Positions 5,247 through 57,824 of a DNA stretch of 64,000 nt are shown piece by piece. Below the pieces are notes generated by a model. That model saw only the letters and a list, made by a program, of their open reading frames with translations, had not been told where the DNA came from and made no database searches. This stretch comes from Halorubrum ruber (lineage in GTDB: Archaea > Halobacteriota > Halobacteria > Halobacteriales > Haloferacaceae): assembly GCF_018228765.1 (NCBI RefSeq), contig NZ_CP073695.1, positions 2,465,218 to 2,529,217 on the forward strand, read 5' to 3'. Within the stretch, counting starts at the first letter, position 1; every line of letters begins with the position of its first letter. The translations under genes were made by a program, and so were the position numbers.

Positions 5247-5836
5247 GGCTCTGTTGAAATCCTATCCTTCGGACATATTATCGACTGAAACAGCCGGTCG
5301 ATTAGAGCTGCTTCCTGATCGGTAGCGGGAGTGGATATCGCAGATCGCCGTCCGCGATGTCGTATTTAAATAGTCGTGAGCGACAGCGACGGGCACTTAT
5401 AAATGACAGGCGGTGGCGCGCCCCGGTGAGCGGCCCGGAGGGCCGCGAACCGACGGTGCGAGGGAGTCGCTGGCGGCGGCAGCCGCCAGCGACGAGGCTG
5501 GGGAGGTGTGAGGTGCTGTGCGGGGCTGTGCGGGGCGGGACTCAAAGGGGCAGTCGCGAGGGCGAAGCACGCCGCAGCAAGCACCGCAGCGAGGGAGCGA
5601 CAGCGACCGAGCGAGGAGCACAGCAAGGCGCGCGAGCCGTCGCGACTGGGGCTTTGGAGATCGTCATCCCAGCAGCGCTGATCACTTATAAACAGCCGAC
5701 AGCAACACCGCTATTCTCTCTATAAATGGTCTCACTCACGACCTACGACACCTACTCCCGAAATCGCTCGTCTCTTCCTCTATACTAACCGCAACGAGGC
5801 CAAAATATATCATTTGCTGAGGATTTCGACAGGAGC
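5247..5836 (+). mobile_element. Nonautonomous element with IS6-like ends (element 1)
   Basis: The left end GGCTCTGTTGAAATCCT (5247-5263) and the inverted right end (reverse complement of 5820-5836: GCTCCTGTCGAAATCCT) share 12 of 13 bases in the CTGTTGAAATCCT core. They resemble IS6-family terminal repeats (GG..CTGTTG). The 590 bases encode no transposase. The left 90 bases also occur, inverted, at 57433-57527, and the right end matches 56871-56925. The centre (5396-5693) is a copy of the dispersed repeat. IS6 origin is inferred from the ends only. Confidence 0.6.
5396..5693 (-). repeat. Dispersed structured repeat, copy A
   Basis: The copy is bounded on both sides by CTTATAAA. In repeat orientation it reads on the minus strand. 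Hairpin 1 has its arms at 5640-5648 and 5551-5559 (9 bp). Next comes the conserved linker with TGCCCCTTTGAGTCCCGCC. Hairpin 2 has a perfect 12-bp stem (5466-5477 with 5482-5493, loop GGCA). Short open frames inside it are on all frames and are not conserved between copies. Confidence 0.8.
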
Positions 5837-6116
5837 TTATAAACCACTGATCGCCACGAACTCCCCCGAAGCCCCAGCCGCGAGGCGGCCAGACGTTCGC
5901 TGTGCTCCTCGTCGCTCGCGTCGCTCGCTCCTGCGGTGCTTGCGTCACCTCTGGTCGCCTCGCGGCTGCCCCTTCGAGTCCCGCCCAACACAGCACCGCA
6001 CCTCACACCTCCCCAGCCTCGCGGCTCACGCTTCGCGGCTGCGCCGCTCGCGTTCGCCGCGTCCCTCGCGCGGTGCTGCTCGGCCGCGGGGCGGCCTCGC
6101 AGGCACGCGCCACCGC
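5836..6116 (+). repeat. Dispersed structured repeat, copy B
   Basis: It starts with CTTATAAACC directly at the end of the IS-like element. Hairpin 1 pairs 5875-5893 with 5950-5968 (19 positions, one G-U pair). Then comes the conserved linker (CTGCCCCTTCGAGTCCCGCC, CCTCCCCAGCCTCG), and hairpin 2 pairs 6020-6025 with 6056-6061. It ends near CAGGCACGCGCC, just 25 bases from the stop of the PUA gene, so it may also act at that gene's 3' end. Confidence 0.8.
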
Positions 6117-27043: not shown

Positions 27044-27200
27044 GGAGTGACCCGCGTGGTGGCCGCGCCCGAATACCCGGCCGTTCGTTTATAAATAGTG
27101 CCGTACGGGGATTCGGTAGACGCTTATAAATTCTCAATCGCTCAGCGTTACGCCGGTGACGGTGATCGGTCAAGAACATCTCCAAATCCCCAGTCGCTTG

Positions 27201-27371
27201 TTTATAAATAGTGAACCGGAGATCAACGGCGAACACCGCCAAGGCCTCAACCGCTCGCTTATAAATGGTGAACTGGAGATCGACGGTGAACGCCGCCAAA
27301 GCCCCAGTCGCTTGTTTATAAATGGTAAACCGGAGATCAACGGCGAACACCGCCAAAGCCCCAGTCGCGAG
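27201..27371 (+). repeat. 57-base tandem repeats, three units
   Basis: Units start with T/CTTATAAAT at 27201, 27258 and 27315, an exact 57-base period. Each unit continues with GTGAAC(C/T)GGAGATC, GGCGAACACCGCC and GCCCCAGTCGC. The third unit runs on into copy C of the ~300-base repeat. Further TTTATAAAT-type boxes at 27088 and 27123 stand outside the period. The unit equals the first part of the dispersed repeat. Confidence 0.8.
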
Positions 27372-27640
27372 GCCGCCGTACGCTCGCTGTGCTACTCGCT
27401 CAGTCACTCCGTTCCCTCGCTGCGGTGCTTGCGTCGCCTACGGCGGCCTCGCGACTGCCCCTTTGAGTCCCGCCCCGCACCGCACAGCAACCGCAGCCTC
27501 ACGCCTCCCCAGCCTCGTCGGGCGCGTCCTGCGGGCTCCCTCCGGTCGCCCTCGCCGCGCCCGACTCCCTCGCGCGTGCGACATCGCGCCCTGCGGGCGC
27601 TCGTCGGCACGCGCCGACCGCACCGGCGCTCATTTATAAA
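27315..27640 (+). repeat. Dispersed structured repeat, copy C
   Basis: The copy is bounded by TTTATAAAT (27315) and TTTATAAAC (27633). Hairpin 1 pairs 27362-27380 with 27439-27457, a perfect 19-bp stem. The linker contains CTGCCCCTTTGAGTCCCGCC and CCTCCCCAGCCTCG. Hairpin 2 pairs 27517-27526 with 27556-27565 (10 bp, arm GTCGGGCGCG). It ends with CGGCACGCGCCG. It sits 190 bases before the nuo operon. Confidence 0.8.
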
Positions 27641-27786
27641 CGAACTCCGTTCCGCGCGCCCCAAAATCGGTGCGCTTCCGTCGACTCGCCCTCCGATCCG
27701 GATCGACGGCTGCCGGTCGCTTCGCCGGTGCTTCGACCGCGAACGGGCGATATCGGCCCGCACGCACGCGGACGCACAAGACTCAA

Positions 27787-27795
27787 CGCTTATGA
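27787..27795 (+). promoter_or_regulatory. Probable promoter of the nuo operon
   Basis: CGCTTATGA lies 39-47 bases before the nuoA ATG at 27834. Nothing closer looks like a TATA box, so a short 5' leader of about 10-15 bases is expected. Confidence 0.4.
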
Positions 27796-27833
27796 GGGGG
27801 CGGTCCAAACGCCAGCACGTTACGGAGACCTAT

Positions 27834-56360: not shown

Positions 56361-56380
56361 GCACCCGAATATCGTCGAAC

Positions 56381-56686
56381 GGACTAGGTCGGGCGGTTAG
56401 GCCCCGCTCGTAACCCGTGAGGCAGTCTTCAGCGGGGACCGAACAGCGGGCACGTCCGGTCAGACCGGCGCGGGCCCCGAGAGCCAACGTGGAAGCCTCG
56501 TCCGCCGGGGACAGCGGTCCGTGACGCCCGCTCGCAGGAGCGGTCCGTCGCGGTTCGTCGGCGACACTGGGTCAGGCGCGGAAGCGAGCAGCCCACCGCC
56601 GGACGCCCGTCGCTCGTCGGGTCGCGGGGTGGAGGAGGCAATCGGGATACCCCGTGCCGGAACGCCGGGCTACCCCGCCTGTCCGC
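56381..56686 (+). ncRNA. ffs: Signal recognition particle RNA (archaeal 7S RNA)
   Basis: The 306 bases carry the helix 8 signature of archaeal SRP RNA: CACTGGGTCAGGCGCGGAAG followed by CGAGCAGCCCA (the SRP54-binding asymmetric and symmetric loops). The 5' domain reads GTAACCCGTGAGGCAGTCTT, and the helix 6 loop CAACGTGGAAGCC is also typical. The 5' GGAC/GGGCGG and 3' CCCGCC/GTCC can pair as helix 1/5 ends. Ends are estimates from pairing. Works with SRP19 (38888-39166) and SRP54. Confidence 0.93.
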
Positions 56687-56811
56687 CATTCATACCGATT
56701 CTCATTCGCTGAGTGGTGACGCTACGATGTTGTGGTTGCTGGCGTGAGCGTCGACACCGCGAGCGTTCATTTATAAGTGAAGACTGTCTGGTCGGAGTTC
56801 TGTTTATAAAT

Positions 56812-56866: not shown

Positions 56867-56870
56867 TCAG

Positions 56871-57527
56871 ATCTGTTGAATTCCTCAGTACGTGATGTAT
56901 TCTGACCCGGTTGCGACAAATACAGGTGACTCACGGATCGGTCAGTACAGCGGTAGCGGTGAGCAATAGCGGGAGTCGATGCTGTCGATCGATCACGACA
57001 AGACGGTGTTTAAATAGTTACGAGGGACAGCGGCGATCGCTTATAAATAGTAGGCGGTGGCGCGTGCCTCCGAGCGGCCGCCCTCGGCGGCCGCGAGGAG
57101 CACGCGCGAGGGACGCGGCGACCGGAGCGAAGCGGAGGGAGCCGCGAGGCTGGGGAGGCGTGAGGCGTTGTGCGGTGCGGGGTGGGACTCAAAGGGGCAG
57201 TCGGATCCGGGAAGACGGCCGACGCAAGCAGTGTGGCGCTACGCGCCACGGGTAGCCGGCGGCAGAGCCGCCGGCGACACCGTAGCGAACGGAGTGAGCG
57301 AGGAGCGCAGCGAGGCCCTCGACCGGAGCCGGCTGGGGGCTTTGGCGGTGTTCACCGCAACGCCGCCGCACGTTTATAAGCAGCCGACGGCGACACCGCT
57401 TGATCACTAATAAACAACTACTCAACCGAACTAATACACATACTCCCGCTACCGATCAAGAAGCGGCTCCCATCGACCGGCTGTTTCAGGCAGGAATGTA
57501 TCTGAAGAATAGGATTTCAACAGAGTC
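56871..57527 (+). mobile_element. Nonautonomous element with IS6-like ends (element 2)
   Basis: The left end ATCTGTTGAATTCCT (56871-56885) and the inverted right end AGGATTTCAACAGAGTC (57511-57527) share CTGTTGAA(A/T)TCCT. The left 55 bases match the right end of element 1 (5745-5836) and the last 95 bases match the left end of element 1. The core repeat (57040-57381) has the same orientation in both, so the ends are swapped relative to the core. There is no transposase gene. Confidence 0.6.
57040..57381 (-). repeat. Dispersed structured repeat, copy D (with insertion)
   Basis: The copy is bounded by CTTATAAATAG and GTTTATAAG. In repeat orientation it reads on the minus strand. It has the linker (CCACCCCGCACCGCAC) and hairpin 2 with arms 57114-57119/57141-57146. 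The hairpin 1 region carries about 50 extra bases with further hairpins, and its stem has two mismatches. The flanks AGGCGGTGGCGCG and GCAGCCGACGGC match copy A. Confidence 0.75.
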
Positions 57528-57538
57528 GAATAATTGAC

Positions 57539-57824
57539 CGCGGATCCGCGATGAACACCGCCGAAGCCCCAGCCGCGAGGACAGCGCACGCTCGTTGCGC
57601 TCCTCACTCGATCGCTCACTCCGTTCGCTCCCTCGTTGCGGTGCTTACGTCGCCTGCGCTGTCCTCGCGGCTGCCCCTTCGAGTCCCGCCCCGCACCGCA
57701 CAGCGCCTCACGCCTCCCCAGCCTCGCCGCTCGCTCCCTCCGGTCGCTCGCGGCGTCCCTCGCGCGTGCTCCTCGCGGTCGCCGGGGGCGACCGCTCGCA
57801 GGCACGCGCCGACCGCAACCGCGG
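57539..57824 (+). repeat. Dispersed structured repeat, copy E
   Basis: Hairpin 1 pairs 57570-57588 with 57655-57673, a perfect 19-bp stem whose inner arm (ACAGCGCA) differs from copies B and C. The linker has CTGCCCCTTCGAGTCCCGCC and CCTCCCCAGCCTCG. Hairpin 2 pairs 57725-57730 with 57750-57755. It ends near CAGGCACGCGCCG, 20 bases from the stop of the GNAT gene. Confidence 0.8.

Follow-up and report, generated by a model that had tools for sequence, protein, structure and literature searches.

Bacterial REP, BIME, and REPIN elements are high-copy intergenic palindromes that occur in both orientations, form inverted doublets in some genomes and keep unpaired bases in their hairpins, as far as the available parts of their descriptions go (PMC3116915, PMC2817692, PMC3733652). 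The palindromic unit analyzed here is likewise dispersed between genes in high copy number (16 full copies within 200 kb of one genome), with inverted doublets in G176, G270, and G297 and with unpaired bases that are kept. It differs in that its unit is ~115 nt long with hypervariable stems, in contrast to the 20-40 bp given for REPs in the accessible text of PMC3733652, and in that no associated Y1 (RAYT-type) transposase was found for it. For Haloquadratum walsbyi, the available part of the description of PATE and SMR elements (PMC3119063) reports non-coding palindromes without terminal inverted repeats and two-hairpin inserts within hairpins, and states that PATE palindromes resemble IS605 ends. 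The present repeat is also haloarchaeal, non-coding, and palindromic, with such inserts in its hairpins; for its class II copies, no inverted repeats were seen. In contrast, no link to IS605 ends was found here at 20 Y1 loci, and neither covarying stems nor a class-wide spread appears in the accessible PATE description (PMC3119063).

A three-hairpin repeat and its distribution

The window analyzed is the whole 64,000-nt stretch of DNA from Halorubrum ruber, whose genome (G000) is a single 3.02-Mb contig. Re-reading of its sequence confirmed five copies of the repeat at the places and on the strands first proposed, and the anatomy is given in the same orientation (= top strand). The original prediction had counted two hairpins; we found three, and the third covaries too. 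In copy C (+ strand), hairpin 1 lies at 27354-27465, hairpin 2 at 27517-27565 (GTCGGGCGC / GCGCCCGAC), and hairpin 3 at 27572-27614 (GCGCGTGC ... GCACGCGC). Hairpin 1 is a unit of ~110-120 nt that reads CAAAG, unpaired CCC, a 19-bp stem, short inner helices, the second arm, unpaired CCC, and CTTTG. The 19-bp stem, the inner 8 bp of which are free in sequence, was as predicted, but it is not the full length of the hairpin; additional helices lie inside it and outside it, where a 5-bp CAAAG/CTTTG helix is placed beyond a nearly invariant CCC/CCC internal loop. Hairpin 1 is followed by a C-rich linker with CCC-N-CCC that terminates in CCTCCCCAGCCTC, then by hairpin 2, a free stem with frequent TC/TC or TCC/TCC internal loops, then by TCCCTCGCG and hairpin 3, with a GCGCGTGC stem, usually a TC/TC internal loop, and an apical stem. 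This arrangement of the linker and hairpins 2 and 3 after hairpin 1 was found in Halorubrum. Among 265 distinct profile matches there were 152 distinct bodies of hairpin 2 and 131 of hairpin 3, and one copy (L072) had cleanly lost hairpin 2.

The cores of the other window copies were placed as follows: copy A at 5410-5655 (- strand, hairpins in the order 3-2-1, hairpin 1 at about 5542-5655), copy B at 5868-6116 (+ strand, hairpin 1 at about 5868-5977), copy D at 57054-57343 (- strand, hairpin 1 at 57189-57343), and copy E at 57563-57816 (+ strand, hairpin 1 at about 57563-57682). Small two-hairpin inserts of ~50-60 nt with variable arms were seen within hairpin 1 or 2 of several copies, in hairpin 1 of copy D at about 57230-57290 (by eye) and at L033, L070, L071, and L030. 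They resemble the SMR elements of Haloquadratum, which the accessible part of the source describes as targeting palindromes (PMC3119063). Tandem 57-bp units (TTTATAAAT ... GCCAAAGCCCCAGTCGC) run into copy C at 27161-27368 (+ strand), and units with the TTTATAAAT box precede many Halorubrum copies, running into hairpin 1. Halovirus HF2 has 58-bp promoter repeats according to the available part of PMC8707807, and the two kinds of array are alike in length and AT boxes, a likeness of descriptions and not of aligned sequences. A distant blastn search of phage records with a query copy that included 54 nt of the 57-bp unit gave no match, and neither did an exact-pattern scan of viral contigs.

Copies were collected widely, as the original prediction had proposed, and the element was matched both in its own genome and by genus-wide blastn in 52/52 Halorubrum genomes (14 candidates scored per genome). 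In G000, blastn of copy C gave at least 72 matches, at least 40 of them long (the best 40 of 340 candidates were scored). A 200-kb part of this genome contained 16 full-length copies among 18 profile matches, i.e., about one in every 12.5 kb; scaled up to the genome, this density corresponds to ~240 copies. A covariance model found 20 matches in the 200 kb, 16 of them above 54 bits. An exact motif was labeled Halorubrum in 77/80 of the matches listed, the other three being a Pyrinomonadaceae MAG, a Halobacteriales MAG, and an uncultured archaeon. A covariance model of hairpin 1 (R1, 158 positions, trained on Halorubrum only) matched 211/292 Halobacteria genomes in 59/77 genera (E up to 0.001; 10 candidates scored per genome), including 176/257 genomes outside the 35 of Halorubrum, and gave no match in 81/292. 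In other classes of the phylum, the base composition of which may differ, R1 matched 0/69 genomes, while 8/11 Halobacteria genomes of the phylum sample were matched. Outside Halorubrum, reading at the sequence level covers 10 genomes of 10 genera, from which 29 copies were inspected in full; the rest of the 59 genera are given by model E-values. The other-genus consensus is GAAAGCCCC - free 14-nt arm - ... CTCGCTGCGCTCCTC ... GCGGTGCTTGCGTCG ... - arm - GCCCCTTTCAGTCCCACCC. Among the matches listed for G176, adjacent copies are often inverted pairs ~200-330 bp apart, and at the loci inspected in G270 and G297, hairpin 1 is followed by another one in inverted orientation. Beyond what was first proposed, the repeat is a class-wide family; its hairpins are exchanged between copies, and a transposon-like unit carries some of its copies as cargo.

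The copies lie mostly between genes. Only 6/52 matches in four genomes overlapped an ORF call (gene calls made here), the rest being intergenic, and the PLSDB plasmid copies examined carried no annotated feature, in a gene table that is incomplete and without RNA genes. The statement that no named RNA family has this shape holds for Rfam 15: at gathering score over the whole window nothing matched any copy and only the signal recognition particle (SRP) RNA was found elsewhere, while at E up to 5 nothing credible or near gathering score was seen in 27100-27800. This archaeal SRP RNA gene (window 56377-56688, + strand, RF01857, 174.9 bits) adjoins copies D/E. In the open-licence PMC literature, searched also with the conserved motifs as search words, we found no published description of the element.

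Covariation and strand asymmetry of the hairpins

For hairpin 1 we aligned 45 copies preselected for at least 16/19 main-stem pairs. Over 36 pairs, standard pairs made up 96.6% of the 1574 pair cells, a percentage that is biased for the main stem because the copies were chosen for pairing there, and both-side changes occurred in 22/36 pairs. The covariation score was 0.320 vs. 0.103 for shuffled data (0/500 shuffles reached it) and fell to 0.029-0.054 when partners were slid. The weakest measure was the number of further pair types (40 vs. 35.6 shuffled; 19/500 shuffles reached it), and inner helix 3 (columns 30-32/88-90) was only 77.8% paired. Helices 1, 4, and 5, which are outside the preselection, covary as well: pair 3-122 was A-T in 37 and G-C in eight copies. 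Pair 52-72 was C-G in 21, G-C in 18, and T-A in three. Results for an unselected set of 158 distinct anchor-defined Halorubrum stems showed 5.54/8 inner pairs vs. 3.34 with shuffled partners (maximum 3.60) and 10.38/11 paired outer positions vs. 9.20. Fourteen of the 19 pairs were reached by 106/158 of these stems; by eye, many of the remaining ones are of a GACTCG type whose internal loop breaks the fixed register.

Covariation was not restricted to this hairpin or genus. In hairpin 3, two covarying positions within the conserved stem were fully paired in 75/96 parsed bodies (of 103) and not in 21, with the types TG/CA (26), TC/GA (26), GA/TC (13), GG/CC (5), CG/CG (3), and TT/AA (2). In 10 other genera, 83 anchor-defined copies of hairpin 1 were paired at 11.7/14 arm positions vs. 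5.4 when shuffled, although loci derived from R1 favor pairing, and several pair types were present at every arm position; the outer pair was A-T in 65 copies, G-C in 18, and mixed in none. The signal thus exceeds both the column-composition controls (shuffles) and the slides, in statistics that include no phylogenetic model, and the objection that it could be noise does not hold. The proposed selection on the fold is supported, now on the basis of hundreds of copies from many species. We conclude that the family is very probably kept for its folded shape, with stems that vary but stay complementary. The combination of free complementary stems and fixed unpaired bases is not accounted for by drift, common ancestry, or arm-to-arm correction on its own.

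These unpaired bases differ between the strands. With both strands scanned, the CCC internal loop was altered in 1-3 of the 357 Halorubrum strand matches and in 2-3 of the 117 from elsewhere; in Halorubrum, one side of the loop read CCC in 187, GGG in 169, and otherwise in one of the 357. The motif used to retrieve part of the loci has the 3′ CCC built in, a bias that does not touch the 5′ CCC. On the bottom strand, the internal loops read GGG/GGG and GA/GA. The apex of hairpin 1 has a TC-2bp-NNN-2bp-TC frame in 202/230 Halorubrum and 72/82 other-genus copies, and 158/202 and 61/72 of the framed copies, respectively, have a TNC loop on the top strand, corresponding to GNA on the bottom one, with covarying 2-bp stems that switch mainly among GC/GC, AC/GT, GT/AC, and CC/GG. 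The bottom strand therefore reads GA-2bp-GNA-2bp-GA, with all four bases found at N. The mirror-image apex, which would place GA/GA on the top strand, was seen in 2/230 Halorubrum and 0/82 other-genus copies. Hairpins 2 and 3 had 33 tetraloops on stems of 5 bp or more, of which 19 were GNNA on the bottom strand; all 19 have a pyrimidine as third base and therefore none is an RNA GNRA loop. Loops of the T..C vs. G..A type were counted at 14:0 (other 2) for tetraloops and 28:4 (other 73) for triloops of hairpin 3, and at 8:4 (other 36) and 27:2 (other 45), respectively, for hairpin 2, so that many loops of these two hairpins fit neither type.

Folding energies pointed to the same strand, being lower for the bottom strand in 60/60 copies sampled from 184, with RNA and DNA parameters alike. 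Top-strand wobbles were more often C.A than G.T (35:9, 26:16, and 24:14; 7:1 in the apical stem of hairpin 3), but in the first two counts a single pair accounts for 21/35 and 13/26 C.A, respectively, and the pair beside the internal loop of hairpin 3 leans the opposite way (T.G 5, C.A 3). As a strand test, the comparison of G.T with A.C wobbles lends weak support to the strand assignment. In DNA, GNA triloops and tandem PyGAPu mismatches are known for unusual stability. We therefore favor single-stranded DNA over RNA, and consider with moderate confidence that bottom-strand DNA is the working form, an assignment that rests on loop types expected to be stable in DNA. Integron attC sites are recognized as a folded bottom strand with free sequence and conserved unpaired bases. 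The present fold is like them in these three respects, by analogy only.

Hairpin exchange and transposon-like carriers

Orthologous copies of G000 and its Halorubrum relative G048 (about 91% identity) were compared with a pool of 43 paralogues. For hairpin 2 (12 pairs), the mean identity was 0.629 to the orthologue, 0.653 to a random paralogue, and 0.928 to the best paralogue. The respective values were 0.742, 0.653, and 0.858 for hairpin 1 (10 pairs), 0.852, 0.802, and 0.956 for hairpin 3 (9 pairs), and 0.820, 0.849, and 0.941 for the linker (12 pairs). The orthologue was better than the best paralogue in three, one, zero, and zero cases for hairpins 1, 2, and 3 and the linker, respectively. 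In hairpins 1 and 3 the exchange is incomplete, since orthologues are somewhat closer than random paralogues. At the nuoA and GNAT loci, hairpins differ across further species too. As orthologues carry different hairpins, each hairpin acts as a module that is shuffled among copies, with recombination at the conserved linkers as the probable route. Such wholesale replacement was seen in place of uniform stepwise compensatory drift within orthologous loci; pair-by-pair changes are nonetheless visible in hairpin 1.

With regard to genomic place, we distinguished two classes of copy. In class I, comprising 4/16 copies in the 200 kb, the repeat lies inside a 590-660-bp unit that has inverted repeats of the GGCTCTGTTGAAATCCT type at its ends. 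Three of these carriers have 8-bp flanks that agree at 7/8 each (GTATAAAC/TTATAAAC, TCGATCCC/TCGAACCC, and CTATAAAT/TTATAAAT), and those of the fourth (AAATAATC/GAATAATT, 6/8) are less clear. Copies A and D of the window are inside such larger units, while copies B, C, and E are not. The carrier of copy A (GGCTCTGTTGAAATCCT-type bounds) spans 5247-5836 (- strand), with the first pair of flanks as its target duplication, and that of copy D spans 56869-57527 (- strand), with the fourth pair as a possible one. For a fifth copy (167890), a weak repeat was seen at one end in G000 and at both ends in G048, and 11/16 full copies have no such inverted repeats.

The two classes also differ in their conservation between species. 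At the corresponding places of G048, 4/4 inverted-repeat copies were absent, whereas the other 12/12 (class II), including the fifth copy, were present; at 132956 the whole unit is missing from the G048 sequence. In less complete comparisons, copies not bounded on both sides were present at 5/5, 3/3, and 2/2 testable places in G010, G028, and G042, while bounded copies were absent at 2/2, 3/3, and 2/2, respectively. In the window, the place of copy A holds no copy on the same strand in G048, G010, or G028; the position of copy B is conserved in G048 and G010, and that of copy E in G048, G010, G028, and G042. Recent duplication does not explain most of the copies examined, which are old, with positions common to several species. 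No clean empty site was found for any copy without inverted repeats, and autonomous mobility of the element is hypothetical.

Units with GGCTCTGTTGAAATCCT inverted repeats also bound unrelated genes (L251, L252, L256, L259, L273, and L278), several of them with 8-bp duplications. Inspection by eye pointed to membrane proteins and a RidA-like protein as the products of these genes, and annotation to a DUF1059 protein; we saw no transposase by eye among the ORFs listed inside the gene-carrying units. On plasmid pHrrPV6 (L419:2501-3132), a unit with the same ends adjoins an annotated IS6 transposase. We suggest that the GGCTCTGTTGAAATCCT-bounded units are transposon-like gene carriers, moved perhaps by IS6 enzymes, a relation given by the shared ends and this one annotated neighbor. 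Class I units are like IS6-family MITE-like units in their 590-660 bp, GGCTCTGTTG ends, and 8-bp duplications; the likeness describes the carrier only, and other cargo genes also lie between ends of this type. At what appears to be the same site (G048 160319-161023 vs. G000 160210-160804, stretch coordinates), the two species have inverted-repeat units of different contents, a membrane-protein-like ORF in one and the hairpin repeat in the other.

Proposed explanations for the repeat

The original prediction implied that the fold is one of RNA. A structured non-coding RNA, with the bottom strand (the top less likely) transcribed and the fold working as RNA, e.g., in protein binding, would agree with the classic covariation, with bottom-strand G.U pairs that are somewhat favored, and with TATA-like boxes near the ends of 27/30 Halorubrum copies. 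Its loop types do not support this: 0/19 GNNA tetraloops fit GNRA, and the GNA triloops occur with all four middle bases. There are also no TATA-like boxes near any of the 29 other-genus copies and no Rfam match, and no rule of orientation relative to genes was found among 52 matches (same/same 18, same/opposite 14, opposite/opposite 11, opposite/same 9; gene calls made here), so that we regard an RNA as rather unlikely. The mixed orientation argues likewise against ordinary cis-regulatory hairpins (terminators, promoters) selected beside particular genes, for which the intergenic location, the TATA-like boxes beside Halorubrum copies, and the conservation of 12/12 class II positions between two species could be cited. 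Since 21 of the 30 nuoA loci scanned (from a set of 51 genomes) had no profile match at all, a copy is not required at nuoA, and such a role appears very unlikely.

Two further explanations would place the origin of the palindromes in mobility or repair. As a PATE-type element, i.e., a non-autonomous IS200/IS605 relative with near-terminal palindromes that a Y1 transposase mobilizes in single-stranded form, the repeat would be expected to show palindromes, mostly copies without terminal inverted repeats, and small elements lodged in hairpins, and in these it is as in Haloquadratum, going by the accessible part of the description (PMC3119063). Yet hairpin 1 had 0 matches in 20 Y1-gene loci (67 kb), and Y1 genes (PF01797) are missing from 10/51 Halorubrum genomes although the element matches 52/52. 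Both results weaken the Y1 transposase as a driver and make a PATE-type origin unlikely. Palindromes could also be made and repaired mechanically, by template switching in hairpins and gene conversion between copies, with no selection on the fold. Conversion is indeed frequent, as the exchange of hairpins between copies indicates. Correction from arm to arm, however, would render CCC/CCC and TC/TC complementary, and both remain mismatched, with their identity fixed in nearly all examined copies while neighboring pairs change freely. A strand-asymmetric fold is also unexpected from correction alone, and we consider this purely mechanical account quite unlikely.

The repeat is probably, though by no means certainly, a REP/BIME-like non-coding haloarchaeal DNA element kept for the shape of one strand. 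Such an element could act when its bottom strand is single-stranded, whether during replication, repair, or transfer or through hairpin extrusion, and a putative hairpin-reading protein would bind the folded single strand; we found no such protein for the element. Stems would be free to drift provided that both arms match, recombination at the conserved linkers would re-sort hairpins among copies, and spread may occur by hitching on transposon-like units and perhaps also by a hypothetical copying mechanism of its own. If this is right, roughly 2% of the Halorubrum chromosome (extrapolated from 200 kb) would be a folded-strand element missed by annotation, and the family would offer unusually clean evidence that the shape of a single strand is under selection at numerous places in the chromosome. 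Its hairpin modules would then swap between repeats faster than species diverge, its stem variants with fixed unpaired motifs would form a natural library for finding the reader protein, and the purpose of repetitive palindromes would become testable in genetically tractable archaea; for H. lacusprofundi, a gene-knockout system is reported (PMC5052560).

A more specific and doubtful possibility concerns the G-tracts of the bottom strand, four of which are available in the GGG/GGG loop of hairpin 1 and the GGG-N-GGG of the linker. The copies might be class-wide single-strand DNA structures of the quadruplex-duplex hybrid type, in which a G-quadruplex is stacked between two helices in molar K+, the stem serves as a per-copy address, and the structure seeds hairpin exchange. 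The pilE quadruplex of Neisseria seeds gene conversion, and the proposed likeness is in the seeding of exchange between copies. If true, the family would represent a chromosomal element of a new kind and not a REP variant. All four G-tracts were present in 173 of about 187 top-strand Halorubrum matches, a count helped in part by the fetching motif, and in 51/68 matches from other genera.
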